This document shows, one piece after another, positions 41,848 through 61,712 of a stretch of DNA of 64,000 bases; within the stretch, counting starts at the first letter, position 1, and every line of letters starts with the position of its first letter. The stretch is from Bacteroidota bacterium (lineage in GTDB: Bacteria > Bacteroidota > Bacteroidia > Bacteroidales > JABHKC01): the NCBI GenBank assembly GCA_018692315.1, contig JABHKC010000028.1:1-64000 (forward strand). Reading direction: 5' to 3'. Under the pieces are notes generated by a model. It did no database searches. It saw nothing but the letters and a program-made list of their open reading frames with translations, and was not told the origin of the DNA. The translations under genes were made by a program, and so were the position numbers.

Positions 41848-41855
41848 TATTTTTG
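41848..41855 (+). promoter_or_regulatory. Candidate -7 box of the pigment cluster
   Basis: TATTTTTG followed by C matches TAnnTTTGC. The earliest in-frame TTG (41853) of the ammonia-lyase gene is part of this box, which argues that the real start is downstream. Confidence 0.45.
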
Positions 41856-41888
41856 CAGATTACAATACTGTTTATAAAAATATCAATA

Positions 41889-43433
41889 TTGAAAATAATA
41901 AATTATATAAAAAATATTTCAATCTTAGATATAGAATCTATTTTAATCAATAATGAAAAAATTGAAATTGACTCTGAATCTATGGATTATGTAGGAAGCA
42001 GTTATAATTTTCTTGTTGAGTTTTCCAAAAATAAAATTATTTATGGGATAAACACTGGTTTTGGACCAATGGCTCAATACAAAATCGACACAAAAGATTT
42101 AAAAGAGCTTCAATATAACTTAATAAGAAGTCATGCAGCCGGTGCAGGAGAAAAAATTCCTGATTTATATGTTAAAGCAGTTATGTTAGTTCGTTTACGA
42201 GCAATTGTTCAGGGTAAATCAGGAATACATCCTTCCTGCGTAAAACTCCTTCAAGAACTTATCAATAAAAACATATATCCGCATATTCCCGAACATGGAG
42301 GGGTTGGAGCAAGTGGAGATTTGGTTCAATTGTCTCATCTTGCTTTAGTTTTGATAGGTGAAGGTGAGGTTACTTACAATGGGAAACTGTACCAATCTAA
42401 AGAAATATTCGAACAAAAAAAACTAAAACCCATTACTGTTAATTTGCGAGAAGGAATTTCTTTAATAAATGGAACTTCGGTTATGACCGGTATTGGTCTG
42501 ATTAATATAATTAAAGCCAAACAATTATTAAATTGGTCGTTAGTGGCATCTGCCATGTTGAACGAAATTGTAGAATCATTTGATGATCATTTTAGTTTTG
42601 AACTGAACAAAATAAAAAAACATACCGGTCAGCAATACATAGCTAAAGTTCTGAATAATATTTTAAAAGATAGCCGGCTTATTACTCGAAGAGTTGATCA
42701 TTTTTACAACAACAATATTGAAGACAGATTTTTTAAAAGAAAAGTCCAGGAGTATTATTCTTTGCGTTGTTTGCCACAAATATTAGGTGCTGTTCACGAT
42801 ACAATTATTCATGCTGAAAAAGTAGTTGTTGATGAAACAAATTCGGTAAGCGACAATCCTATTGTAGATTTAGAAACTGAAAATGTATATCATGGTGGCA
42901 ATTTTCATGGCGATTATGTTTCTTTAGAAATGGATAAATTGAAATTAGCTACTACAAGAATTTCTATGCTTGCCGAAAGACAGTTGGCATTTCTCATGAA
43001 TCCACGATTAAATGAAAAACTTCCACCCTTTGTAAATCTCGGAAAACTTGGATTAAATTTAGGAATGCAAGGAGTTCAATTTACTGCAACATCTACTGTT
43101 GCCGAAAATCAAACTTTATCAAATTCGATGTATGTCCATAGTATAACTACTAATAACGACAATCAAGATATTGTCAGTATGGGGACAAACTCTGCTTTGC
43201 TCTCAAAAAAAGTAATCGACAATGCTTTTCAAGTTCAAGCCATTCAAATAATTGCTATACTTCAAGCTATTGATTATCTTAAAATCAAAGATAAAATGTC
43301 ATCAATCACATCAAATATTTATAATTCTTTAAGAAAGATTGTTCCTGTATTTGTTGAGGATTCACCAAAATACAAAGAAATTGAAAGATTAAGTAATTAT
43401 TTGTTTGAAACAAAAATTGAATTGCCAAAATAA
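41889..43433 (+). CDS. Aromatic amino acid ammonia-lyase (HAL/TAL family)
   Basis: The protein is about 514 residues from the TTG at 41889. It has YGINTGFG (Tyr52, the catalytic base), SHAAGAGE, and the MIO triad Ala141-Ser142-Gly143 within GGVGASGDLVQLSHLAL, whose cyclisation makes the electrophilic prosthetic group. The family deaminates His, Tyr or Phe. At the head of a polyene cluster, tyrosine ammonia-lyase activity giving 4-coumarate is most likely, as in flexirubin clusters of other Bacteroidota. Histidine is the alternative. No urocanate-pathway genes are nearby. No ATG exists in the right place; TTG at 41889 fits the family length. Confidence 0.88.
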   Translation: MKIINYIKNISILDIESILINNEKIEIDSESMDYVGSSYNFLVEFSKNKIIYGINTGFGPMAQYKIDTKDLKELQYNLIRSHAAGAGEKIPDLYVKAVMLVRLRAIVQGKSGIHPSCVKLLQELINKNIYPHIPEHGGVGASGDLVQLSHLALVLIGEGEVTYNGKLYQSKEIFEQKKLKPITVNLREGISLINGTSVMTGIGLINIIKAKQLLNWSLVASAMLNEIVESFDDHFSFELNKIKKHTGQQYIAKVLNNILKDSRLITRRVDHFYNNNIEDRFFKRKVQEYYSLRCLPQILGAVHDTIIHAEKVVVDETNSVSDNPIVDLETENVYHGGNFHGDYVSLEMDKLKLATTRISMLAERQLAFLMNPRLNEKLPPFVNLGKLGLNLGMQGVQFTATSTVAENQTLSNSMYVHSITTNNDNQDIVSMGTNSALLSKKVIDNAFQVQAIQIIAILQAIDYLKIKDKMSSITSNIYNSLRKIVPVFVEDSPKYKEIERLSNYLFETKIELPK

Positions 43434-43439
43434 TTAATT

Positions 43440-44168
43440 ATGAAATACGCATTAGTAACAGGAGGTTCACGAGGTATTGGAAAAGCAATTTCAATAAAAT
43501 TAGCACAAGATGGTTTTTATGTTTTAATAAATTTCAAAGCTAATATTGAAGAAGCCACAGACACTTTGAACACAATAAAATTGAATGGCGGAAATGGAGA
43601 ATTATTGCAGTTTGATGTTTCAAATCCTCAAGACATTGAAAATGTTTTAGGCAGTTGGCTTGAAAATAATAGCGATAAATTAATAGAAGTTTTAGTAAAT
43701 AATGCCGGTATTACCAAAGACAATTTGATGGTATTTATGTCTGATGAAGAGTGGAAAAGTGTAATCTCCACAAATCAGGATAGTTTTTTCTTTGTAACTC
43801 GTTTGCTCTTGAAAAATATGCTTGTAAACAAATGTGGAAAAATTGTTAATGTTGTATCACTATCAGGACAGAAAGGACTACCGGGGCAAGTAAATTATTC
43901 TGCCGCAAAAGGAGCAGTAATTGCTGCAACAAAAACATTGGCAATGGAAGTTGGGAAGAAAAAAGTTACAGTAAATGCAGTTGCACCCGGTTTTATTAAA
44001 ACAGATATGACAAAAGATTTTGATGAAAAAGAATTAAAAAAACTCATTCCATTGAAAAGATTTGGTGAGGTAGAAGAGGTTGCCGAGGTTGTTAGTTTTT
44101 TGGCTTCCGTAAAGGCTTCGTATATCACCGGTGAAATAATTTCTGTTAATGGAGGAATGCATAGTTAA
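43440..44168 (+). CDS. 3-oxoacyl-ACP reductase (FabG-like)
   Basis: The 242-residue short-chain dehydrogenase has TGGSRGIGKAI for NADPH, NNAG, the catalytic Ser and Tyr-X3-Lys (YSAAKGA), and the C-terminal GEIISVNGG. It would reduce the beta-keto group after each condensation in polyene growth. It starts 6 bp after the lyase and is in the same operon. Confidence 0.9.
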   Translation: MKYALVTGGSRGIGKAISIKLAQDGFYVLINFKANIEEATDTLNTIKLNGGNGELLQFDVSNPQDIENVLGSWLENNSDKLIEVLVNNAGITKDNLMVFMSDEEWKSVISTNQDSFFFVTRLLLKNMLVNKCGKIVNVVSLSGQKGLPGQVNYSAAKGAVIAATKTLAMEVGKKKVTVNAVAPGFIKTDMTKDFDEKELKKLIPLKRFGEVEEVAEVVSFLASVKASYITGEIISVNGGMHS

Positions 44169-44178
44169 AAAAAATACG

Positions 44179-45396
44179 ATGAATAGAGTTGTTATTACAG
44201 GATCAGGAATTTATTCTACAATTGGTAAAAATTTGCAAGAAGTTAAAACCTCACTATATAATGGGAAATCAGGCATTGGAATAGACCCGAGAAGAAAAGA
44301 ATTTGGTTTTCGTTCTTCGCTTACAGGTATTATTGACGAGCCAAACTTAAAAGGAATTCTCCCAAGAAGAATGCGTATAGGACTTTCTGAGCAAGGAAAA
44401 TATGCATATGTTGCAACAATGGAAGCTTTAAAAAATGCAAATATTGATATGGATTTTTTAGAGAAAAATGAAGTTGGTATTTTGTATGGAAACGACAGTT
44501 CTTCTATCCCGGTAATAGATGCAATAGACATTGTAAGACAAAAAAAGGATACAACATTGATAGGTTCTGGTTCAATTTTTCAATCGATGAATTCTACAAT
44601 CACAATGAATTTATCGGTAATTCTTAAATTGAGAGGAATAAATTTCACAATTAGTGGTGCTTGTGCCAGCAGTTCTCACGCAATAGGTATTGCTTATTTA
44701 TTAATAAAACAAGGGCTTCAAGACATAATAATTTGTGGAGGTGGTCAAGAAGTAAATGCCGAATCAATGGGAAGTTTCGATGGTTTAAGTGCTTTTTCAA
44801 TTAGAGAAGATGCACCCACAAAAGCTTCAAGGCCCTTTGACAGAGATCGTGATGGACTTGTTCCAAGTGGTGGTGCTGCAACGGTAGTTGTAGAAAGTCT
44901 CGAATCGGCTTTACGAAGAGGTGCCAATATTATAGGAGAAATTAAAGGGTATGGTTTTTCCTCAAATGGCGATCATATATCTGTACCAAATGTAGAAGGA
45001 CCTATAAGGTCTTTGCAACGATGTATAAAAGATGCACATCTATCTTTGAAAGAAATTGATTATGTAAATGCTCATGCAACTTCCACACCTGTAGGTGATA
45101 TGAATGAAGCAAAAGCATTAGATACCGTTTTTGGAAAACACAAACCACCGATAAGTTCTACAAAATCATTGACCGGACATGAAATGTGGATGGGTGGTGC
45201 AAGCGAGGTAATATATTCTCTATTAATGATGCAAAACAACTTTATTGTACCTACTATAAACCTTGAGAATATTGATGAGTCTGCAAAAAATCTGAATTTA
45301 TTAAAAGAAACAAAAACTGCTAAAATTGACACTTTTCTTTCAAACTCATTTGGATTTGGAGGAACTAATTCAACATTAATAATTTCAAAATATTAA
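44179..45396 (+). CDS. Beta-ketoacyl-ACP synthase, FabB-like
   Basis: From the ATG at 44179 this is a 405-residue condensing enzyme with the catalytic triad Cys162 (GACASSSH), His299 (HATSTPVGD) and His334 (TGHEMWMGG). The similarity is closer to FabB than FabF. It is the first ketosynthase of the cluster and may carry out a starter condensation. An upstream ATG at 44149 overlaps the fabG-like gene and adds residues foreign to the family. It ends 12 bp before the ACP. Confidence 0.88.
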   Translation: MNRVVITGSGIYSTIGKNLQEVKTSLYNGKSGIGIDPRRKEFGFRSSLTGIIDEPNLKGILPRRMRIGLSEQGKYAYVATMEALKNANIDMDFLEKNEVGILYGNDSSSIPVIDAIDIVRQKKDTTLIGSGSIFQSMNSTITMNLSVILKLRGINFTISGACASSSHAIGIAYLLIKQGLQDIIICGGGQEVNAESMGSFDGLSAFSIREDAPTKASRPFDRDRDGLVPSGGAATVVVESLESALRRGANIIGEIKGYGFSSNGDHISVPNVEGPIRSLQRCIKDAHLSLKEIDYVNAHATSTPVGDMNEAKALDTVFGKHKPPISSTKSLTGHEMWMGGASEVIYSLLMMQNNFIVPTINLENIDESAKNLNLLKETKTAKIDTFLSNSFGFGGTNSTLIISKY

Positions 45397-45408: not shown

Positions 45409-45651
45409 ATGAATAGAACTGATATAGAAAACATTGTTAATGAGTTTTTAATCGATGAATTCGAAATCGAAGAAGATGAAATAACTGGTGAAGCTCATCT
45501 AATGAAAGACTTGGGAATAGAAAGTCTCGATTTTGTTGATATTGTTGTGATTATAGAAAAAGAGTTTAATTTTAAAGTTAAACGTGAAGATCTAACTGAT
45601 GTAAAAACCCTTAATAATCTTTATGATTATATTGAAAAATATATGAATTAG
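45409..45651 (+). CDS. Acyl carrier protein, first of cluster
   Basis: The 80-residue acidic protein has the phosphopantetheine site GIESLDFVD (Ser39). It carries the growing acyl chain. It stands between the first ketosynthase and the LpxL-like acyltransferase. Confidence 0.9.
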   Translation: MNRTDIENIVNEFLIDEFEIEEDEITGEAHLMKDLGIESLDFVDIVVIIEKEFNFKVKREDLTDVKTLNNLYDYIEKYMN

Positions 45652-45664
45652 ATAATATTTTGAT

Positions 45665-46564
45665 ATGACATCTTGGTCTGGAAAATCGCGAGGCGGAAAA
45701 TTCGGCTATACATTTTTTATTGCTTTATTAAAATTTACAAACATTAGACTTACATATTTTTTTATAAAATTTGTAGCATTGTATTTTTTAATAGTATCAG
45801 ACAAAACATCTAGTAAGTATTATTTCCGAAAAATTTTAGCGTTTAATAACTTAAAAACCATAGTTAGTATCTATAAAAACTACTGCCTTCTTGGCGAAGT
45901 TCTTATTGATAAAATCTCCGTTTTAGCTGGTTTTAAAGACAAGTTTACATTTGATTTTGATGGAGAAGAGTTTCTGATACAAATAGTTAATGAAAAAAGA
46001 GGGTGTTTACTTATTGGTGCTCATATGGGCAATTGGGAAGTTGCCGGACAACTTTTAGAGAGATTAGATACAAAAATAAATATTGTATTGTATGAATCCG
46101 AACATCAAAAAATAGAAGAGTTGCTTGAGAAAAATATGGTAAAAAAAAATGCTAATATCATTCCTATTAAAGATGATTTTTCGCACTTATATAAAATCAA
46201 GGACGCTTTCCTTAATAACGAAATAGTAGTTATGCACGGAGACAGGTTTTTGCCCGGCACAAGCACAGTTATTATGGATTTTATGAATCGTTCGGCTCAA
46301 TTTCCGACGGGACCATTATATTTAGCAAGCAAAAATAATGTTCCGGTTTCGTATGTTTACGCATTAAAAAAATCGGCAACTCATTATCATTTTTACGCAA
46401 CAAAAGGAAAAATTTATCCTTATCCTGCAAAAATTAAAACGAGAAGACAGGAACTAAAAATTATGGTAAAAGATTATGTTTTATCTCTCGAATCAATAAT
46501 TGAAAAATATCCACTACAGTGGTTCAACTATTATCCTTTTTGGGAAGAAGAAAAAAATAATTAA
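45665..46564 (+). CDS. LpxL/HtrB-like acyltransferase
   Basis: The 299-residue protein has the lysophospholipid acyltransferase motif GAHMGNWEVAG (His-X4-Glu) and a membrane-associated N-terminus. Relatives add acyl chains to lipid A. In polyene clusters such enzymes are thought to attach the polyene acyl group to a lipid or other acceptor. The next gene overlaps its stop by one base. Confidence 0.82.
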   Translation: MTSWSGKSRGGKFGYTFFIALLKFTNIRLTYFFIKFVALYFLIVSDKTSSKYYFRKILAFNNLKTIVSIYKNYCLLGEVLIDKISVLAGFKDKFTFDFDGEEFLIQIVNEKRGCLLIGAHMGNWEVAGQLLERLDTKINIVLYESEHQKIEELLEKNMVKKNANIIPIKDDFSHLYKIKDAFLNNEIVVMHGDRFLPGTSTVIMDFMNRSAQFPTGPLYLASKNNVPVSYVYALKKSATHYHFYATKGKIYPYPAKIKTRRQELKIMVKDYVLSLESIIEKYPLQWFNYYPFWEEEKNN

Positions 46565-47631
46565 TGGCATTAAATTACGGATCAGATAAAAAATCGGCAC
46601 TACAAGCAAAATTCGATGCTCAGAAAATTGCTTTTGCCCCTATTATGTTTCAGGCTGCAAAATCGCTTAGAGATTTAGGAATACTAGAAATAATCAAAAA
46701 AAATAGAAAAGGAATAACTATTCAAGAAATTGCCGAAAACTTAGACATTTCTGTTTATGGAGTTAAAGTATTGTTAGAGGCAGGTTTAAGTCTTGAAATA
46801 GTGATAGTTAAAGATGATAAATTTTTCATTACAAAAACCGGTTGGTATATTTTAAAAGATAATCTTACTCGGGTGAATATGGATTTTTCTAATGATGTAA
46901 ATTATCAAGGAATGTTTTCTCTTTCAGAGTCAGTAAAAGCTGGAAAACCAACGGGTTTGCAAACTTTTGGAGACTGGGATACTGTTTATGAGGGTTTGTC
47001 GCATTTGCCGGAAAATGTACAAAAAAGTTGGTTTAATTTCGACCATTTTTATTCCGATTATGCCTTTCCTGAAATAATGCCCATTGTATTTAGAAATAGC
47101 CCAAAAAGTATTTTAGATATTGGAGGAAACACTGGAAAATTTTCGATAAAATGTTCGGAATACAATCCGAATGTAAAAATAACAATTTTAGATTTACCCG
47201 GGCAATTGAAAAAGGCAGAAGAAAATATCAAAAAACATGATTTGGAGAATCGAATTGCTTGTTTTCCAATAAATTTGCTCGACCATTCAAAACCATATCC
47301 GAAAAATAGTGAGGTATTATGGATGAGTCAATTTTTAGATTGTTTTTCGCAAAATGATATTTATAAACTATTACTAAGAGCAAAAGAAGCCATGAATAAT
47401 TCTGCCTCATTATTCATTTTAGAAACATACTGGGATAAACAAAAATTTGAAGCATCAACATATAGTTTACATGCTACATCATTATATTTTACGAATATTG
47501 CAAATGGTTGCAGCCAAATGTATCACTCCGAAGATATGCTTAAACTTATTGAAAAAGCCGGATTATTTATAGAAGAATCTTTTGAAGATATCGGGGTAAG
47601 TCATACATTATTTAAATGTAAAAAAAATTGA
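46564..47631 (+). CDS. SAM-dependent O-methyltransferase-like protein
   Basis: The 355-residue protein has an N-terminal winged-helix-like dimerisation part (about 20-100) and a Rossmann core with ILDIGGNTGKFS and ITILDLPG. This is the layout of plant-type and acetylserotonin/hydroxyneurosporene O-methyltransferases. It could methylate the aryl hydroxyl or a ring carbon of the pigment. Overlaps with its neighbours show tight co-transcription. Confidence 0.8.
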   Translation: MALNYGSDKKSALQAKFDAQKIAFAPIMFQAAKSLRDLGILEIIKKNRKGITIQEIAENLDISVYGVKVLLEAGLSLEIVIVKDDKFFITKTGWYILKDNLTRVNMDFSNDVNYQGMFSLSESVKAGKPTGLQTFGDWDTVYEGLSHLPENVQKSWFNFDHFYSDYAFPEIMPIVFRNSPKSILDIGGNTGKFSIKCSEYNPNVKITILDLPGQLKKAEENIKKHDLENRIACFPINLLDHSKPYPKNSEVLWMSQFLDCFSQNDIYKLLLRAKEAMNNSASLFILETYWDKQKFEASTYSLHATSLYFTNIANGCSQMYHSEDMLKLIEKAGLFIEESFEDIGVSHTLFKCKKN

Positions 47632-50031: not shown

Positions 50032-51156
50032 ATGAAGGTATTTATTGAAGCAAATAATATAATTTCCTCTTTGGGATTTTCTACAAATGAAAATTTCAAT
50101 AATATTCTTAATGGTGAAATTGGTATAAAAACTTGCACAAATAAACATTTGTCCTCCAAAGCTTTTCCTGCTTCGTTTATTGATAATTATAAAATAAATG
50201 AAAATTTTCAAAGCATCGAAAATAAAACCAAATATACACGTTTTGAAAAACTTTCAATTCTTTCGGTAAATGAAGCTCTTAACAATTCTTCTGCAATAGT
50301 TTCCGATTCTCGAACCCTTTTTATTTTATCAACAACAAAAGGAAATATTGAATTGTTAGACAATAATTTACCAGAGGATTTTCCTGAAGAGCGACTAAAT
50401 TTATTCACTACAGCAAAAACAATTTCCGATTTTTTTAAGATAAAAATTCCTCCAATGATTGTTTCAAATGCTTGTATTTCAGGCGTTGCAGCAATTGTTT
50501 TAGGTCAAAGATTAATCAATCAAGGACATTATGATAATGTAATAGTTAACGGTACAGATGTGCTTTCAAAATTTGTTGTTTCGGGTTTTCAATCATTTTT
50601 GTCATTAAGTACAAATCCTTGCAAACCCTTCGATATCAATAGAGATGGTTTAAGTTTGGGTGAAGGTTCAGCAACAATTATTCTCACAAAAAACAAAACC
50701 AATATTGAAATTGCAGATGGGGCCACCAGTAACGATGCTAATCATATTTCAGGTCCTTCGCGAACAGGCGAGGGCTTGCTAATTGCAATAAATAAGGCAA
50801 CAAAAAACTATAAAAATATTGATTGTATTTCAGCACACGGCACTGCCACTCCTTATAACGATGATATGGAATCAAACGCAATTTCGCGTGCTGGTTTTCA
50901 ATCGGTTCCAACCAATAGTCTCAAAGGTTATTTTGGACATACATTAGGTGCAGCCGGGCTTATTGAATCTATAATCAGCCTCGAATCAATTAAAAATAAT
51001 ACTCTAATCAAAACCGCAAATTGTACTACTCCAGGCACCGTTGAAAAAATTAATATTATCCTGAAAACAGAAAATCAAAAACTTAATTCCTTATTAAAAC
51101 TTGCCTCAGGATTTGGTGGTTGCAATGCAGCTGCCTTATTTTTAAAACATGAATAA
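50032..51156 (+). CDS. Beta-ketoacyl-ACP synthase, FabF-like, second of cluster
   Basis: The 374-residue condensing enzyme has the triad Cys148 (SNACISGVAA), His269 (SAHGTATPYND) and His303 (FGHTLGAAG). It is shorter than FabF by about 35 residues but has the full active site. It overlaps the next gene, a half-length ketosynthase-like protein, by 8 bases, suggesting the two products form a pair. Confidence 0.85.
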   Translation: MKVFIEANNIISSLGFSTNENFNNILNGEIGIKTCTNKHLSSKAFPASFIDNYKINENFQSIENKTKYTRFEKLSILSVNEALNNSSAIVSDSRTLFILSTTKGNIELLDNNLPEDFPEERLNLFTTAKTISDFFKIKIPPMIVSNACISGVAAIVLGQRLINQGHYDNVIVNGTDVLSKFVVSGFQSFLSLSTNPCKPFDINRDGLSLGEGSATIILTKNKTNIEIADGATSNDANHISGPSRTGEGLLIAINKATKNYKNIDCISAHGTATPYNDDMESNAISRAGFQSVPTNSLKGYFGHTLGAAGLIESIISLESIKNNTLIKTANCTTPGTVEKINIILKTENQKLNSLLKLASGFGGCNAAALFLKHE

Positions 51157-51760
51157 ACGATATATACAAAAACATATAAAGCTTGTAAACAATACGGTTT
51201 TTATAAATTTAGAAAAAATATTCTTAGTGAATAAAAATGAATTATTTTCAAATTTTGCAAAATCAGTATATAAAAATTATGAGATTAAATATCGCAAATT
51301 CTACAAGATGGATGCATTAAGCAAACTTGGTTTTCTATCTGCCGAAATTCTTTTACAAGATATAAACCTTGATGAATTTAGTCCTGAAGACATAGCAATA
51401 ATTTGTGCTAATTCGTCATCTTCTTTACACACAGATAAAAATTATCAAAAAACCATTTCGGAAATTCCAAGTCCATCTGTTTTTGTATATACTTTACCCA
51501 ATATTGTTACCGGCGAAATTTGTATAAAAAATAACATAAAAGGAGAATCGTTATTTTTTATTCAAGAAAAATTTGATATTCAATTCATTTACAAATATGT
51601 AGATTCCCTTTTTGAAAATACAAGCACAAAACTTTGCATTACGGGATGGATAGAATTAAATGCAAATGAAGAATATCAAGCAGATTTGTATTTAATTTCT
51701 ACCAGTAAAACTGATTTAGAATTTAATGAAACCAATTTAAATAAAACACATAACTCATGA
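51149..51760 (+). CDS. Half-length ketosynthase-like protein without active-site residues
   Basis: The 203-residue protein resembles the N-terminal half of a ketosynthase (IICANSSSSLHTD, FVYTLPNIVTGEICI) but has neither the catalytic Cys nor the His pair. The order in the operon (ketosynthase, half ketosynthase, ACP) and overlaps at both ends suggest a structural partner of the preceding enzyme. An inactive relic is possible, but the frame is intact. Confidence 0.65.
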   Translation: MNKRYIQKHIKLVNNTVFINLEKIFLVNKNELFSNFAKSVYKNYEIKYRKFYKMDALSKLGFLSAEILLQDINLDEFSPEDIAIICANSSSSLHTDKNYQKTISEIPSPSVFVYTLPNIVTGEICIKNNIKGESLFFIQEKFDIQFIYKYVDSLFENTSTKLCITGWIELNANEEYQADLYLISTSKTDLEFNETNLNKTHNS

Positions 51761-52017
51761 ATGAATTATTCGAAAACTTAAAAATACAGTTAATCGAACT
51801 GCTAAATTTAGAAGATATTGAATCCGATGAAATCGGTACAGTTGAACCTCTTTTTGGCGATGGTTTAGGCTTAGATTCTATCGACGCATTAGAAATTATT
51901 GTTCTTTTGGAAAAAGAATACGGTTTAAAAATCGAAAATCCGAAAGATGGGAAAGAAATAATGTATTCAATAGAAACTTTAGGCAAGTTCATTACTAAAA
52001 ATCAGGAGAGAAAATAA
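51757..52017 (+). CDS. Acyl carrier protein, second of cluster
   Basis: The 86-residue acidic protein has the site GLGLDSIDALE (Ser41). The GDGLGLDSID pattern is like the carriers in aryl-polyene clusters. Its start overlaps the end of the half-ketosynthase gene and it is followed by the third ketosynthase. Confidence 0.9.
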   Translation: MNELFENLKIQLIELLNLEDIESDEIGTVEPLFGDGLGLDSIDALEIIVLLEKEYGLKIENPKDGKEIMYSIETLGKFITKNQERK

Positions 52018-52037
52018 CAAATTTGAAGCTTCACTTT

Positions 52038-53231
52038 ATGCAAAAAGATATTTTTGTAACAGGAGTTGGAATAATTTCTGCGATAGGAAACAATACTGAA
52101 CAATGTTTTGAATCTCTTAGAAACAAAAAGTCTGGCTTGGGTTCAATAGAAATTCTGCAAACCAAACACAAAGATAAAATCAAAGTAGGAGAAGTCAAAT
52201 TAACTAATTATCAGCTATTAGATATATTAGGTTTGTCGCATTCTCAAATAAAAAAATATTCCAGAACTTCTTTGTTGGGAATAATTGCTTCAAACGAAGC
52301 TGTTAATAATTCCGGAATCGACGTAAAAGATGAGGAATTAAAAACCGGATTAATTTCAGCCACTACAGTCGGAGGAATGGATAAAACAGAAATCGAAATT
52401 GCTGACCAAAAAGCAACCCCTGATTTTTTATTGACGCATCCCTGTGGCGATTCTACAAATAAAATTTGTGATTATATTGGAATTGATGCTTACAGAACAA
52501 CCATAAGCACCGCTTGTTCTTCCGGAAATAATGCCATTATTCATGGAATAAAACTTATCAGGCATGGAATTATTGATAGAGCTATAGTTGGAGGGGTGGA
52601 TGCATTATCAAAATTTACTCTTAATGGATTTAATTCATTAATGATTTTAGATAAAGAATTTTGTAAACCCTTTGATAAAAATAGAATGGGGCTTAATCTT
52701 GGCGAGGGTGCAGGTTTTCTTGTAATTGAATCCGAAAAATCTCTTAAAAAGAGGAGGAAACAAGCTATATGCAAGATTTTAGGATATGCAAATGCAAACG
52801 ATGCATATCATCAAACAGCCTCATCGCCGGAAGGAGAAGGAGCATTTATAGCAATGAGTGCAGCCTTGAAAATGAGTAATTTGCAATATAATGAAATAGA
52901 TTATATTAATGCTCATGGCACAGCAACTCCAAATAATGATTTGTCGGAAGGGCTTGCAATAAAGCGAGTTTTTGAAGAAAAATTACCAAAATTTAGTTCT
53001 ACAAAAGCATATACCGGACATGGTTTGGGGGCAGCAGCAGGAATTGAAGCCGTATTTTCTGTTTTGTCGATACAGAAAGGAATGATTTTCCCAAATCTGA
53101 ATTTTGAATCTGTCATTCCTGAACTTAATATTAGACCACAAACAGAGCTAAAAGAAGCAAATGTTAGGAATGTATTATCAAATTCGTTTGGTTTTGGAGG
53201 AAATAATTCATCAATTATCTTTTCAAAATAA
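52038..53231 (+). CDS. Beta-ketoacyl-ACP synthase, FabF-like, third of cluster
   Basis: From the ATG at 52038 the protein is 397 residues with an intact triad: Cys160 (STACSSGNN), His293 (NAHGTATPNND) and His328 (YTGHGLGAAAG). It is the best candidate for the chain-extending ketosynthase. The next gene encodes a relative with Gln in place of the Cys, so together they resemble a ketosynthase/chain-length-factor pair. Confidence 0.9.
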   Translation: MQKDIFVTGVGIISAIGNNTEQCFESLRNKKSGLGSIEILQTKHKDKIKVGEVKLTNYQLLDILGLSHSQIKKYSRTSLLGIIASNEAVNNSGIDVKDEELKTGLISATTVGGMDKTEIEIADQKATPDFLLTHPCGDSTNKICDYIGIDAYRTTISTACSSGNNAIIHGIKLIRHGIIDRAIVGGVDALSKFTLNGFNSLMILDKEFCKPFDKNRMGLNLGEGAGFLVIESEKSLKKRRKQAICKILGYANANDAYHQTASSPEGEGAFIAMSAALKMSNLQYNEIDYINAHGTATPNNDLSEGLAIKRVFEEKLPKFSSTKAYTGHGLGAAAGIEAVFSVLSIQKGMIFPNLNFESVIPELNIRPQTELKEANVRNVLSNSFGFGGNNSSIIFSK

Positions 53232-53236
53232 GTAAC

Positions 53237-54286
53237 ATGAATGTATTTATAAACTCTACAGAAGCTATCACAGCTCAAAATACATTTGATTCAAATGAAT
53301 TTCTGAGAAATTTAAAGAAACCTGAGAAAAATTATTTTACCTGTTTAAACCCAAACTATAAAAATTACATTAATCCAAAATTGCTGCGGCGAATGAGCAA
53401 AATTGTTAGAATGGGAGTCGCTTGTTCCATTCAAGTTTTGCAAAAAGCTAATATTGAACAACCCGATGCTATAATTATTGGAACAGGTTTGGGTTGCATT
53501 GACGATACTATAAAATTCTTGAATCAGATTATCGAAAATGATGAATCTTTACTAAATCCAACCCCTTTTATACAATCGACACATAATACTGTTTCGGGGC
53601 AAATTGCTTTATTGTTGACTTGTAAAAACTACAATTTTACTTTTTCGCAACAAGCAGCTTCTTTCGAGACAGCTCTTATTGATGCATTTTTGATGCTTCA
53701 GGAAAAAAATGAGAGCAATATTCTTTTAGGTGGATTAGACGAAATTACAGAGACAAGTTATTCTTTGATGGAAAAAGTCGGTTGTACGAAAGTTCCAGTT
53801 GATGATATTTTTACTACAAAAACCAAGGGATATATTCCGGGAGAAGGAGCTGGTTTTTTCACTTTATCAAATATAGTTTCTGAAAAAAATATTGCATGTT
53901 TGAAAGGAGTTTCTGTTTTTAATAATGACAATAATGGGAATTTACTTGAAGACCTCCAAGCTTTATTTTCAAAAAATAATGTTTCAATTGCAGATATTGA
54001 TGTTTTAATTTCCGGAATGAATGGAGATTTTTATGAAGATAGAAATTATTCTTCTATTCAAAAAGTATTTCAAACTAGTATTCATCTGGCATACAAACAT
54101 TTGATTGGAGAATTTGATACTGCTTCATGTTTTGCAATGTACATAGGAACGAAAATATTTCAAAGCCAAATAATTCCAGAAGCATTAAAAATTAATGGTA
54201 CTAAAAGAAATTTTATTAAAAATATTTTAATCCATAATTACAATAATGAACACAAACATTCTTTTATAATTTTATCTAAATGTTGA
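53237..54286 (+). CDS. Ketosynthase-like chain-length-factor homologue (Gln for Cys)
   Basis: The 349-residue protein has a ketosynthase fold (GTGLGCIDDT, ILLGGLDEIT, YIPGEGAGFF). At the nucleophile position it has Gln139 (SQQAASFETAL), as the chain-length factors of type II polyketide synthases do. The two catalytic His motifs are also absent. It follows the third ketosynthase by 5 bp. It probably forms a heterodimer that sets polyene length, like the CLF partner in aryl-polyene systems. Confidence 0.78.
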   Translation: MNVFINSTEAITAQNTFDSNEFLRNLKKPEKNYFTCLNPNYKNYINPKLLRRMSKIVRMGVACSIQVLQKANIEQPDAIIIGTGLGCIDDTIKFLNQIIENDESLLNPTPFIQSTHNTVSGQIALLLTCKNYNFTFSQQAASFETALIDAFLMLQEKNESNILLGGLDEITETSYSLMEKVGCTKVPVDDIFTTKTKGYIPGEGAGFFTLSNIVSEKNIACLKGVSVFNNDNNGNLLEDLQALFSKNNVSIADIDVLISGMNGDFYEDRNYSSIQKVFQTSIHLAYKHLIGEFDTASCFAMYIGTKIFQSQIIPEALKINGTKRNFIKNILIHNYNNEHKHSFIILSKC

Positions 54287-55096: not shown

Positions 55097-55732
55097 ATGA
55101 AACACAACATTTTAGTTTTATTTCTTCTAATTAGTTTAAATTTATTTTCACAGAAAAAAAACAATTTTATTCCAATAGAAAATATCAAAGAATTGGAGCA
55201 AAAACTTAATGCTAAATCTGCTGAAATTAATACGATTAAAAGCGATTTTATTCAAGAAAAACATTTGGCTTTTTTGAATGATACAATTATTACGAAAGGG
55301 AAATTTTGGTTCAAAAAAGAAAATCAATTAAGATGGGAATATACAAGTCCGTTTGAATATATTATTGTTATCAACAGTGGTAAATTTATTATTAAAGATG
55401 AAGAGAAAATTAGCGAATTCGATATTAATTCAAACCAAGCGTTTCAAGAAGTTAATAGTTTAATAATCAGTTCCGTAAAAGGTTCGCTTTTAGAGGAAGA
55501 CAAATTTGAAATAGATGCTTTTGAAAACTCTACAACATATTTTGTATCGCTTATTCCTTTAGATGAGGAAATGAAAAATATTTTGAATAAAATTGAATTG
55601 TATTTCGATATTTCAAGCTTGAATATTTCAAAAGTAAAAATGATTGAAAATGAAGATGATTACACCATAATTTCTTTTACAAACAGAAAATTAAATGAGA
55701 GTGTTCCGGCAAATATTTTTATTCTCAATTAG
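55097..55732 (+). CDS. LolA-like outer-membrane lipoprotein carrier
   Basis: The 211-residue protein has a signal peptide (cleaved about LNLFSQ) and the LolA-fold start TIKSDFIQEKHLAFLNDTIITKGKFWF followed by NQLRWEYTSPF. LolA proteins shuttle acylated molecules across the periplasm. LolA-like genes are part of aryl-polyene and flexirubin clusters, where they would carry the hydrophobic pigment. Confidence 0.85.
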   Translation: MKHNILVLFLLISLNLFSQKKNNFIPIENIKELEQKLNAKSAEINTIKSDFIQEKHLAFLNDTIITKGKFWFKKENQLRWEYTSPFEYIIVINSGKFIIKDEEKISEFDINSNQAFQEVNSLIISSVKGSLLEEDKFEIDAFENSTTYFVSLIPLDEEMKNILNKIELYFDISSLNISKVKMIENEDDYTIISFTNRKLNESVPANIFILN

Positions 55733-57875: not shown

Positions 57876-60800
57876 ATGCAAAATATTTTTATCAACACAT
57901 ATAATTTATTCAATAGAAAGAAATTTCTGCTAATAGCAACTATCGTTGCTATTTTTGCTTTTATAGCTTTCTTTTTATCTTCCATTAAATTAGAAGAAGA
58001 CATCAAAGCTATTATTCCTCAAGATGATAGAATTGATAAAATTAGTTTAGTTTTGAATAATTCTAAATTTTCGGACCAGATAATTTTAAATTTCTCATGC
58101 AATGACATTTCTCAAACAAATGCTGAATTTTTAGTAAAAAAAGCAGAAAAACTTGTTGAGTTTTTAGCAAAAAACAAAAAACTTATCAATAAAATTAGTT
58201 TTAAAGTAGAAGATAATTCTTTTCAAGAGGTTTACGATTTCTTTTATGAGCATCTTCCATTTTATTTGTCTAATGAAGACTATAGATATATAAAAAGTTT
58301 ATTCACAGAAGATGAAATAGAACGAGCATTAAGAAAAGATTTTAAATCGTTAATTTCTCCAGCAGGAATGGCTACTAAAAATTATATTCTGAAAGACCCA
58401 TTCAGCATTACACCTTTAGCTTTAAAGAAATTACAAGATTTTCAATTAGATGACAATTTTAATATATACAAATCCTGTATATTTACTAAAGACAAAAAGA
58501 ATTTGTTGGTTTTTATTGAACCTGCTTACCCTTCAAATAATATTGAACAAAATAGCATATTAATTGATTCGATAGAATGTGCAATAACAAAATTGCTTAG
58601 TTCGGATTCCGAAATAAATATTGAATATTATGGAGGAACTGCTGTTGCTGTGGCAAATGCAAAAAGAATTAAAGCCGATATAATGCTAACTGTTTCGTTT
58701 GCATTTTTATTCATCTTTATTATTTTTTTCTTTTTTTTCAGGAAAATAAAAATCTTAATACTACTTTTTTTTCCTGTAATTATAGGGACAGGTATTTCAA
58801 TAAGTTTAATTTCTATCTTTTATGGAAGTGTTTCAGCCATAGCTTTAGGTGTAGGGGCTATTTTGGTGGGCATTTCTATAGATTATTCGCTACATTTTTT
58901 TACACATTTTAGAAATAGTGGCTCTATTAAACAAACTTTAGAAGAGATTTCTTTTCCTGTAATGATAAGTAGTTTTACTACTGCCACAGCCTTTTTGTGC
59001 CTTTTTGTTATAAAATCTGAAGCTCTTAATCAATTAGGTTTGTTCGGAGCTTTAAGTATCATTTTTGCAGCATTAGCGGTTTTAATAATTATTCCTGCTT
59101 TTTTGTCAGATAAGAGCTTCGGATTATCAAAATCAAAATTTGGGTTTTTAGATAAAATAGCTGTTTACGAAATTCATAAAAATAAGATTGTTGTTGTAAT
59201 AATTGTGTTATTTTCTTTAGTTTTTAGTTTCACATTTAGCGATATTCACTTTAATAGCGATATAGCTACACTCAACTATCTCCCCGATTATTTGCGGAAT
59301 GCCGAAAAAAACTTAGAGAAAATTAGTTCTGAAACTTTTAGTGCCGTATATTTTGTAACTATGGGTGAAAGTTTGAACGAAGCACTACATAAAACCGAAA
59401 ATAAAAAGGAATTATTAAAGTTTGCCGAAAATAAAAAGCTGTTTTCTTCAATGTCTTCAGGTGTAGATTTGCTTCTTACAGAAAAAAGACAAATTGAGAA
59501 AATCAAACAATGGGATTTATTTTGGAGTTCTGTTGATAGGTCGAGATTAGAATCTATTATAATTGAAAAAGGAAAAAAAATTAAATTTAACAAAAGTGCT
59601 TTCAGTCAATTCTTTACTTTAATCAATAAAAAATTTGTTCCTATTCCATTAGATGAGTTTTCTACTTTACAAAATACTTTTCTAAGAAATTATATCAATT
59701 CAGCGGATAGTATGTTTTCGGTAATTTCTATTTTGAAGGTTGAACAAAAAAACAAACAAGAATTGTTTAATTTGTTCGAGATGGAAAATGATATTATTAT
59801 TTTCGATAAACAATATTTTTCTAACTATTTTTTCGATATTCTAAGAAATGATTTTAATAAGCTTGTTATACTCTCAATAATAATTGTTTTTAGCATTTTA
59901 TTATTGTCGTTCGGAAGAATTGAGCTTGCTTTAATCACATTTACTCCAATCATGCTTAGTTGGCTCTGGACTTTAGGATTAATGGGATTGTTCAATATTG
60001 AGTTCAATATTTTTAATATTATTATCTCCACATTTATTTTTGGATTAGGGATTGACTACAGTATATTTATAATGAGAGGATTGCTGAGTAATTATAAATA
60101 TGGAAATCGTCCTATTACTCCTTATAAGCTTTCTGTTTTATTGTCAGTAATAACAACAATATTGGGAATTGGAGTTTTAATTTTCGCACATCATCCCGCA
60201 TTAAAATCAATTGCATTTGTTTCTATTTTTGGAATTGCATCAGTTGTAATAATTTCTTATACAATTCTCCCATTATTATTTGGTGTGCTTACTAGTCAAA
60301 ATGGATGCCTCAGAAATGAACCTATTACAATGACAAATAGTTTAATTTCAATATTTACTTTCACAATTTTTCTAATCAATTCGGTTTTTCTTACCATTTG
60401 CATTCCATTTTTATATATACTTCCCTTGCCGCGAAAATATGGAAAATATATTTTTCATTGGCTAATTTATTCAACAAGTCGCTTTGTGGTTTGGATTAAT
60501 TTTATAATTAAAAAAGAGATAATAGATAAAGAAAAAATTGATTTTTCAAATCCTTCTGTATTTGTATCTAATCACCAATCTCATTTAGACCTTGTGCTTA
60601 TTCTAATGTTAAATCCAAAAATAATAGTAATAACAAATAGGCGGGTTTGGAATAATCCTTTTTATGGTTTTATAGTAAGATTTGCCGATTATTTTCCAAT
60701 TTATAAAGGCATTGATAAAGGCTTTGAAAAAATACGCAAAAAAGTAAAAGAAGGATATTCTATTTTAGTATTTCCGGAAGGAACCAGAACTATTGATGGT

Positions 60801-61712
60801 ACAATAAAACGGTACCATCAAGGAGCTTTTAAGTTAGCCGATGACTTGAATTTAGAAATACAGCCAATTTTAATTCACGGAGCTTATCAATGTTTGCCAA
60901 AAACAGATTTTTTCCTACGCTCGGGTTTTATATCAATAAAATATTTCGATAGGATAAAAGTAAAATCTGTCAACACAGAAAAGAATGAGACATACAGACA
61001 GCAAGCAAAAGACCTGACAAAATTCAAAAGAAAAGAATACGATGCTCTATGTATTGAAAAAGAAACTACGGACTTTTATCGGCAAAAAATTATTAACCGA
61101 TATATTTACAAAGGTCCAGTTTTGGAATGGTATGTTAGAGTAAAATTAAAACTTGAAAAGAATTACTATTTTCTTAATGAAATAATCCCCAAGAATGCAA
61201 ATATTGTAGATATCGGCTGCGGATATGGATATTTAGCTTATATGTTAAAATCAGTTTCAAAAGAAAGAAATATTTTAGGAATTGATTATGATGAAGAAAA
61301 AATTGCCGTAGCAAATAGAATTGAAACAAATAATGCGGGTTTAAATTTTATTTTAAAAGATATTTCAGAGGGGAGCATTCCATCGGCAGATGTTTATATT
61401 TTAAAAGATGTATTACATTATATGCCTGAAAATCTACAAATAGCAATACTAAATAAATGTATGAACCAAGTTTCAGACAATGGAATTATTATTGTAAGGG
61501 ATGCCGATGCCGATTTAGAAAAGAGAACAAAAGTTACAAAAAAAACGGAAATACAATCGACTAAAATTTTCAAGTTTAATAAAACAAAATACAATTTGAC
61601 CTATATTTCAGGAAAGAAGATAAGCAATATTGCAAAAAACAATGGGTTCAATTGTACTAGATTTGATAATTCTAAGAAAACTTCCAACATTACATTTATC
61701 ATTAAAAAATGA
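57876..61712 (+). CDS. MMPL exporter-PlsC acyltransferase-methyltransferase fusion
   Basis: The 1278-residue protein has three parts. Residues about 1-830 are an RND/MMPL-type exporter with an N-terminal membrane segment, a periplasmic loop and two sets of membrane segments (GVGAILVGISIDYSLHF and FIFGLGIDYSIFIM). Residues about 880-1050 are a PlsC acyltransferase (NHQSHLD with His900, FPEGTR). Residues about 1090-1278 are a SAM-dependent methyltransferase (VDIGCGYGYLA, LKDVLHYMP). In other clusters these are separate genes. I see no frameshift in the reading frame. The product is likely an export and anchoring machine. Confidence 0.85.
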   Translation: MQNIFINTYNLFNRKKFLLIATIVAIFAFIAFFLSSIKLEEDIKAIIPQDDRIDKISLVLNNSKFSDQIILNFSCNDISQTNAEFLVKKAEKLVEFLAKNKKLINKISFKVEDNSFQEVYDFFYEHLPFYLSNEDYRYIKSLFTEDEIERALRKDFKSLISPAGMATKNYILKDPFSITPLALKKLQDFQLDDNFNIYKSCIFTKDKKNLLVFIEPAYPSNNIEQNSILIDSIECAITKLLSSDSEINIEYYGGTAVAVANAKRIKADIMLTVSFAFLFIFIIFFFFFRKIKILILLFFPVIIGTGISISLISIFYGSVSAIALGVGAILVGISIDYSLHFFTHFRNSGSIKQTLEEISFPVMISSFTTATAFLCLFVIKSEALNQLGLFGALSIIFAALAVLIIIPAFLSDKSFGLSKSKFGFLDKIAVYEIHKNKIVVVIIVLFSLVFSFTFSDIHFNSDIATLNYLPDYLRNAEKNLEKISSETFSAVYFVTMGESLNEALHKTENKKELLKFAENKKLFSSMSSGVDLLLTEKRQIEKIKQWDLFWSSVDRSRLESIIIEKGKKIKFNKSAFSQFFTLINKKFVPIPLDEFSTLQNTFLRNYINSADSMFSVISILKVEQKNKQELFNLFEMENDIIIFDKQYFSNYFFDILRNDFNKLVILSIIIVFSILLLSFGRIELALITFTPIMLSWLWTLGLMGLFNIEFNIFNIIISTFIFGLGIDYSIFIMRGLLSNYKYGNRPITPYKLSVLLSVITTILGIGVLIFAHHPALKSIAFVSIFGIASVVIISYTILPLLFGVLTSQNGCLRNEPITMTNSLISIFTFTIFLINSVFLTICIPFLYILPLPRKYGKYIFHWLIYSTSRFVVWINFIIKKEIIDKEKIDFSNPSVFVSNHQSHLDLVLILMLNPKIIVITNRRVWNNPFYGFIVRFADYFPIYKGIDKGFEKIRKKVKEGYSILVFPEGTRTIDGTIKRYHQGAFKLADDLNLEIQPILIHGAYQCLPKTDFFLRSGFISIKYFDRIKVKSVNTEKNETYRQQAKDLTKFKRKEYDALCIEKETTDFYRQKIINRYIYKGPVLEWYVRVKLKLEKNYYFLNEIIPKNANIVDIGCGYGYLAYMLKSVSKERNILGIDYDEEKIAVANRIETNNAGLNFILKDISEGSIPSADVYILKDVLHYMPENLQIAILNKCMNQVSDNGIIIVRDADADLEKRTKVTKKTEIQSTKIFKFNKTKYNLTYISGKKISNIAKNNGFNCTRFDNSKKTSNITFIIKK

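Follow-up and report, generated by a model that had tools for sequence, protein, structure and literature searches.

The region at positions 50032 to 54286 of a 64,000-nucleotide stretch of DNA (the window; Bacteroidota bacterium, Bacteroidales, JABHKC01; assembly GCA_018692315.1, contig JABHKC010000028.1, positions 1–64,000, forward strand) probably encodes two distinct heterodimers of the ketosynthase:chain-length factor (KS:CLF) type, which would belong to a flexirubin-type type II polyketide synthase (PKS) and jointly elongate one chain. Each of two active-site-intact ketosynthases, KS2 and KS3, is accompanied by a putative inactive partner, half-length for KS2 (HALF) and full-length for KS3 (CLF), and an acyl carrier protein (ACP2) is encoded between the two pairs. 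The five open reading frames described in an earlier sequence-only reading (a ketosynthase, a half-length partner, an ACP, a further ketosynthase and its relative) were all recovered in place:

50032..51156, + strand: KS2, active-site-intact ketosynthase of the ApeO superclade, FlxI position, pair 1 (C148/H269/K298/H303; tree placement)
51149..51760, + strand: HALF, 203 aa, putative half-length CLF-type partner of KS2, FlxL position, pair 1 (AlphaFold predicted local distance difference test (pLDDT) 90.0; top Foldseek matches chain-length factors; fusions to KS2 in 10 genomes)
51757..52017, + strand: ACP2, FlxM position, between both pairs (PF00550; NF006617 68.2 bits, cut-off 70)
52023..53231, + strand: KS3, active-site-intact ketosynthase of the ApeO superclade, FlxN position, pair 2 (C165/H298/K328/H333; tree placement)
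53237..54286, + strand: CLF, 349 aa, putative full-length partner of KS3, FlxO position, pair 2, without the Cys and with both catalytic His replaced (PF13723; pLDDT 91.4; hhalign to ApeC E 1.4e-7; fusions to KS3 in 3 genomes)

The genes from KS2 to CLF formed one coupled operon, with overlaps of 8 nt between KS2 and HALF and of 4 nt between HALF and ACP2, and intergenic gaps of 5 nt at both ACP2/KS3 and KS3/CLF. ACP2 possessed Ser41 within a GLDSID motif.

Both ketosynthases carried the intact Cys-His-His and Lys set of a type II PKS KS subunit (C148, H269, H303 and K298 in KS2; C165, H298, H333 and K328 in KS3), and these four residues were kept in 67/67 KS2 and 79/79 KS3 sequences. In a KS tree of 74 rows, KS2, KS3, ApeO and the xanthomonadin-type KS formed one clade (Shimodaira-Hasegawa-like approximate likelihood ratio test, SH-aLRT, 99). 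KS2 and KS3 each formed a clade of their own outside ApeO (SH-aLRT 100), the grouping of KS2 with ApeO reaching only 83, and the stem branch was longer for KS2 (1.18) than for KS3 (0.48). As judged by sequence, KS2 and KS3 are separate paralogues of ApeO with intact catalytic residues, and since they stand as separate clades beside ApeO, the KS/partner pair appears to be present in duplicate, compared with the single pair of known aryl-polyene systems. A further ketosynthase encoded upstream, KS1, grouped with ApeR (SH-aLRT 95) in 13 of its 14 rows, the copy at locus L072 standing apart. The outgroup rows included one Kosakonia and one Streptomyces KS; matches from Kosakonia, Variovorax and Streptomyces, which do not belong to aryl-polyene clusters, were rejected as comparators.

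CLF matched PF13723 with 49.1 bits (cut-off 25), and its AlphaFold model, a single chain with a pLDDT of 91.4, displayed a complete double thiolase fold. The model aligned to the actinorhodin chain-length factor 1tqy_B over 345 residues (Z 38.1, root-mean-square deviation 2.7), with ordinary FabF structures scoring equally. Profile comparison by hhalign with ApeC of Pseudoalteromonas gave an E-value of 1.4e-7 across 165 columns, and phmmer against 6qsp_B one of 2.9e-4; by these comparisons, CLF is a homologue of ApeC, an established chain-length factor. The closest solved matches to KS3 and to the CLF profile were chains B and C, respectively, of PDB entry 9s5h, chain C being without the Cys and having Glu at the second His place. 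A literature search found no paper for 9s5h, an entry that is also missing among the structure matches listed.

The sequence-only reading had equated the active Cys of CLF with Gln139, a residue it gave as typical of chain-length factors in type II PKSs; this assignment did not hold. In 12/12 joint MAFFT alignments (4 methods x 3 samples), it was Ala140 that occupied the KS Cys column, Gln139 lying one position before it, and HMMER alignments to PDB ketosynthases likewise placed Ala140 there. Among 59 aligned CLF homologues, the Gln139 column held Arg (27), Lys (10), Ser (6), Gly (5), Ala (5), Asp (4), Leu (1) and Gln (1), the sole Gln being that of the window sequence itself, while the Ala140 column held Gly (34), Ser (11), Ala (7), Thr (3), Cys (2), Asn (1) and Asp (1). 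The second catalytic His column was occupied by Glu (57/59) or Asp (2/59), the first corresponded to an invariant Gly260, and Lys287 was conserved in 59/59. On these alignments, Gln139 is peculiar to the CLF of the window and is not a chain-length-factor signature. Because Ala140 stands at the Cys column and the His columns are replaced, CLF is best read as an inactive KS homologue without a Gln signature. Its naming as a chain-length factor stands on other grounds, namely its fold, its alignment with PDB ketosynthase chains and the homology to ApeC.

In the actinorhodin chain-length factor, the Gln sits at the Cys position. This Gln at the Cys position, a trait of type II PKS KS:CLF pairs, was not found in CLF, whose Cys column holds Ala140, whereas the accessible text of PMC3691225 describes a conserved Gln in this region of the actinorhodin protein (1TQY).

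The KSQ domains, in which Gln stands for Cys, decarboxylate malonyl-ACP and retain the His pair. That CLF is a KSQ-like malonyl-ACP decarboxylase priming the synthase is highly improbable, and this candidate was rejected: Gln139 occurs in one of the 59 homologues and off the Cys column, and Glu or Asp and the invariant Gly260 stand where the His pair would be. The point in its favor comes from Lysobacter, where the Gln of the half-length chain-length-factor-like ORF16 is needed for pigment (Q166A; available portion of PMC3691225). A catalytic or ligand-binding role of CLF itself at a remodelled second site is very unlikely as well. The old catalytic loops do contain invariant (Gly260, Gly263, Lys287, Gly291) and near-invariant residues (Asn262, 53/59; Asp264, 52/59; Glu292, 57/59) in the 59 homologues, and chain 9s5h_C has GIYGD and K...GE at the corresponding places, but CLFs of 198–270 aa from the same order are without that half, which is hence dispensable there.

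Concerning HALF, no match to Pfam or NCBIfam was obtained at E 0.001. Its single-chain AlphaFold model (pLDDT 90.0) had a KS/thiolase fold, for which Foldseek ranked the AntDE:AntF chains and the actinorhodin and ishigamide chain-length factors first, with ApeC at ranks 14 (7f28_C) and 27 (6qsp_B); structural alignment by VIA-align left chain-length factors and FabFs tied (Z 14–15). The HALF profile had a sole match among PDB sequences, the ishigamide chain-length factor (E 0.0084), and HALF against the CLF profile gave an E-value of 2.3e-5. In the joint MAFFT alignments, Lys141 occupied its Cys column, and KS2 and KS3 are each adjoined by a KS-fold partner without the active-site Cys, as in KS:CLF systems (Lys141 in HALF, Ala140 in CLF). 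The half size of ApeC, with one thiolase fold, was found in HALF (203 aa) and not in the CLF of the window (349 aa). NCBI pipeline annotations in Aureispira and Persicobacter read 'beta-ketoacyl synthase chain length factor' for the homologue of CLF, while that of HALF is labelled 'N-terminal-like domain-containing' or 'hypothetical'.

The pairing of KS2 with HALF and of KS3 with CLF is well supported by comparison with related loci. The proposed arrangement, one ACP flanked by two KS/partner pairs, was thereby upheld by pair-exact fusions, conserved gene order and identical genome distribution. Gene order was surveyed in 80 loci picked by CLF similarity, 69 of which extend 6 kb or more upstream of CLF. 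The order was KS2-(MT)-HALF-ACP2-KS3-CLF, where MT is a methyltransferase; KS2, HALF and KS3 were all present in 63/69 loci, both KS2 and HALF were missing from the remaining six (four with KS3 and two without), and KS2 or HALF alone occurred in 0/69. KS3 lay directly 5' of CLF in 83 of 88 CLF copies, and the gene 5' of HALF was KS2 in 38 cases and MT in 20, with none in 13. HALF and CLF co-occurred in an identical set of 34/395 phylum genomes (E at most 6e-50 and 3.5e-60, respectively) and of 29/119 order genomes (E at most 1.3e-41 and 1.8e-39), i.e. 62 distinct genomes, as the genome of the window was counted in both sets. The doubled KS:CLF set is common across Bacteroidota and not peculiar to the window.

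Domain-checked fusions joined KS2 to HALF in 10 of these 62 genomes (loci L151, L152, L154, L157, L174–L179) and KS3 to CLF in three (L153, L154, L155), with L154 harboring both fusions and ACP2 between them. As several loci had been taken for their long frames, 10/62 and 3/62 are the fair fusion rates. On the starred tree branches, no fewer than two changes in fusion state are required for each pair. Crossed fusions were found in none of the 62 genomes, and among 99 loci no other neighbor pair was fused (HALF-ACP2 0/80, ACP2-KS3 0/85, CLF-PDA 0/83) except a glycosyltransferase and an MMPL-type exporter (GT-MMPL, 3). In one genome (G055), the two pairs were on separate contigs (L155, L180), KS2 with HALF and apart from KS3-CLF. 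Second KS3-CLF copies, always together, were present in 8/80 loci.

Several observations weigh against this pairing. When pairwise protein distances from 39 loci were correlated after removal of the cluster average, the partial distance correlation was 0.077 for KS2-HALF and 0.336 for KS3-CLF, compared with 0.505 for HALF-KS3, so that the named pairs were not favored; the other values were 0.373 (HALF-CLF), 0.289 (KS2-KS3) and 0.002 (KS2-CLF). The fusions partly reflect gene order, since only neighbors can fuse, and no KS-partner fusion was present among the 80 loci selected for similarity to CLF. The structure models are of single chains, KS3 is likewise missing from two of the six loci that lack KS2/HALF, and the HALF profile did not match ApeC significantly (E 0.091, one ApeC compared). 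The top correlation of HALF with KS3, together with the MT standing between KS2 and HALF in some loci (5' of HALF in 20), could be taken to mean that the partners are not paired by gene order, HALF binding KS3 or all four proteins joining in one higher-order complex. This is quite unlikely, given 13 fusion cases in 62 genomes with none crossed and the separate contigs of G055.

The second KS3-CLF pairs stood beside the main cluster, on the same strand in L063, L066, L072 and L085 and on the opposite strand in L086, L097, L098 and L111, where they carry a further ACP2-like gene. A second HALF was not seen among the 80 loci found by CLF similarity. In one genome (G135; L158, L159), ~280 kb separated HALF from a CLF-like gene accompanied by KS1-like and ACP genes, as in a scattered cluster.

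The closest studied counterparts are the ApeO-ApeC systems with ApeR (Xenorhabdus, Acinetobacter; PDB 6QSP, 7F28, 7F27), where, as in the window, an ApeO-superclade KS stands beside an active-site-less chain-length factor and an ApeR-clade KS is added. There, the heterodimer with a half-size chain-length factor is established, and this subunit lines the KS pocket (PMC8358021). Those systems have one KS:CLF pair and the window has two, ApeC is half size whereas one chain-length factor of the window is full length, and the starter is 4-hydroxybenzoate in place of the tyrosine-derived coumarate (FlxA) of the window. In Lysobacter, ORF17 and ORF16 likewise comprise a KS always adjoining a half-length chain-length-factor-like protein, and deletion in this system abolishes pigment, but only one pair is present and its conserved Gln is without counterpart in the window proteins (accessible part of PMC3691225). 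The accessible text on the youssoufene and gla cinnamoyl-lipid type II PKSs reports two or three KS:CLF pairs per cluster, acting successively on one polyene; these systems are actinobacterial and described as phylogenetically apart from canonical type II PKSs (PMC9381841).

The intact KS active sites, the lost active sites and KS fold of the partners, and the pairing by fusion and co-occurrence suggest a model in which KS2 and its half-length dead partner would form pair 1, KS3 and its full-length dead partner would form pair 2, and ACP2 would serve both, with the ApeR-like KS1 alongside. By analogy with ApeO-ApeC, KS2 and KS3 are each expected to form a heterodimer with their partner, which would cap the KS, close its pocket at the far end and thereby determine chain length. 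KS1 may take the early rounds, like ApeR, and both pairs would then elongate the same aryl-polyene chain, which is probably handed from the shorter to the longer range. A precedent for two heterodimers acting in turn, and for the division of labor suggested here, is youssoufene, with three KS-CLF pairs in sequence (accessible text of PMC9381841). The 'two phases of elongation' of the sequence-only reading are possible on this analogy, whereas its other option, two chains, is less likely, as the dialkylresorcinol half needs only DarA and DarB according to the available portion of PMC3992019.

It is also unlikely, if still credible, that only KS3:CLF elongates the polyene while KS2:HALF serves another step, such as coumaroyl starter loading or the dialkylresorcinol half. 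The retention of CLF without KS2 and HALF nearby in 6/69 loci, set beside no HALF-bearing genome without CLF, and the longer KS2 stem branch are in line with such a split. Yet HALF occurs somewhere in all 62 CLF genomes, and KS2 keeps its four catalytic residues in 67/67 sequences and falls within the ApeO superclade. That KS2:HALF acts on the dialkylresorcinol half is the less likely because DarA and DarB suffice, the two alone having given resorcinol in heterologous expression (PMC3992019, text available).

Some CLFs of the same order had only 198–270 aa (L154, L155, L156, L157, L028, L031) and were without the second thiolase half, and two of them sit inside fusions. In the CLF tree, from which L036 and L158 as well as L027 and L032–L035 (identical genes to L153–L157) were omitted, the six rows of short forms made one group nested in the long ones (SH-aLRT 90). 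Some branches were long and the program warned of long-branch joins, for which reason shortening independent of ApeC is likely rather than proven. The CLF of the window is a full-length relative of the half-size ApeC, and its lineage seems to have gone through the shortening anew. A more speculative view, put forward tentatively, is that flexirubin synthases of Bacteroidota are linear-chain type II PKSs in which two obligate KS:CLF heterodimers relay around a shared ACP, the FlxO lineage losing its second thiolase half stepwise (349 to ~200 aa), independently of ApeC and with KS-CLF fusion on the way.

The gene order of the window was that of flxA-flxY of Chitinophaga pinensis, by which alone FlxC, FlxI, FlxL, FlxN and FlxO were matched to KS1, KS2, HALF, KS3 and CLF (PMC3992019, accessible text). 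In that flexirubin paper of 2014, all five go under the name 'putative beta-ketoacyl synthases', and its accessible text makes no mention of KS:CLF pairing or active-site loss in the C. pinensis flx proteins. Whereas one heterodimer serves in the aryl-polyene systems studied, flexirubin clusters seem to employ two of the KS:CLF type together with an ApeR-like KS. The component parts are of known kinds, and a doubled set of KS:CLF pairs, one with a full and the other with a half partner, appears undescribed for flexirubin; a literature search, weak in that subscription journals are mostly outside its coverage, returned no account of KS:CLF pairing for this pigment. Clusters for flexirubin are widespread, with 268 biosynthetic gene clusters from 252 strains reported in the available part of PMC9248904, and Bacteroidota are not among the 14 phyla of a KS-CLF catalogue as far as its accessible text goes (PMC10132072). 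Re-reading two of five 'ketosynthases' as inactive partners would give a classic pigment of chemotaxonomy a concrete enzyme model and makes testable the question of why one chain needs two KS:CLF pairs, while full-length, shortened and fused CLFs offer a natural series for structural work.

The region from 41853 on is a flexirubin-type aryl-polyene cluster, with the following further features:

41853..43433, + strand: FlxA-type tyrosine ammonia-lyase, cluster context (NCBIfam NF053541 820.6 bits, cut-off 700)
43440..44168, + strand: FabG-like ketoreductase, FlxB position (SDR by sequence reading; equal place in relatives)
44149..45396, + strand: KS1, ApeR-like ketosynthase, FlxC position (grouped with ApeR, SH-aLRT 95)
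45409..45651, + strand: ACP1 (NCBIfam ACP models)
46564..47631, + strand: FlxJ-like methyltransferase (NF053543 524.9 bits, under the cut-off of 560)
55097..55732, + strand: flexirubin LolA2, cluster context (NF053544 216.6 bits, cut-off 125)

Both flexirubin markers, the FlxA tyrosine ammonia-lyase (820.6/700) and LolA2 (216.6/125), exceeded their curated cut-offs. The cluster is named flexirubin-type because the FlxJ methyltransferase match did not reach its own (524.9 bits against 560). A search for darA and darB in the genome of the window returned four KAS III-like matches, none identified as DarB. Another contig of this genome (C106; 46577-48019 and 958-2527) possessed a second aromatic ammonia-lyase-like gene (318.5 bits with the FlxA model), two adjoining KAS III genes and a short-chain reductase. 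At 57876-61712, the window encoded a 1278-aa MMPL-type exporter that, by eye, is followed in the same frame by an acyltransferase with FPEGTR and by a part resembling a SAM-methyltransferase; in the three relatives with the GT-MMPL fusion, the glycosyltransferase was joined to the later part of this exporter protein.

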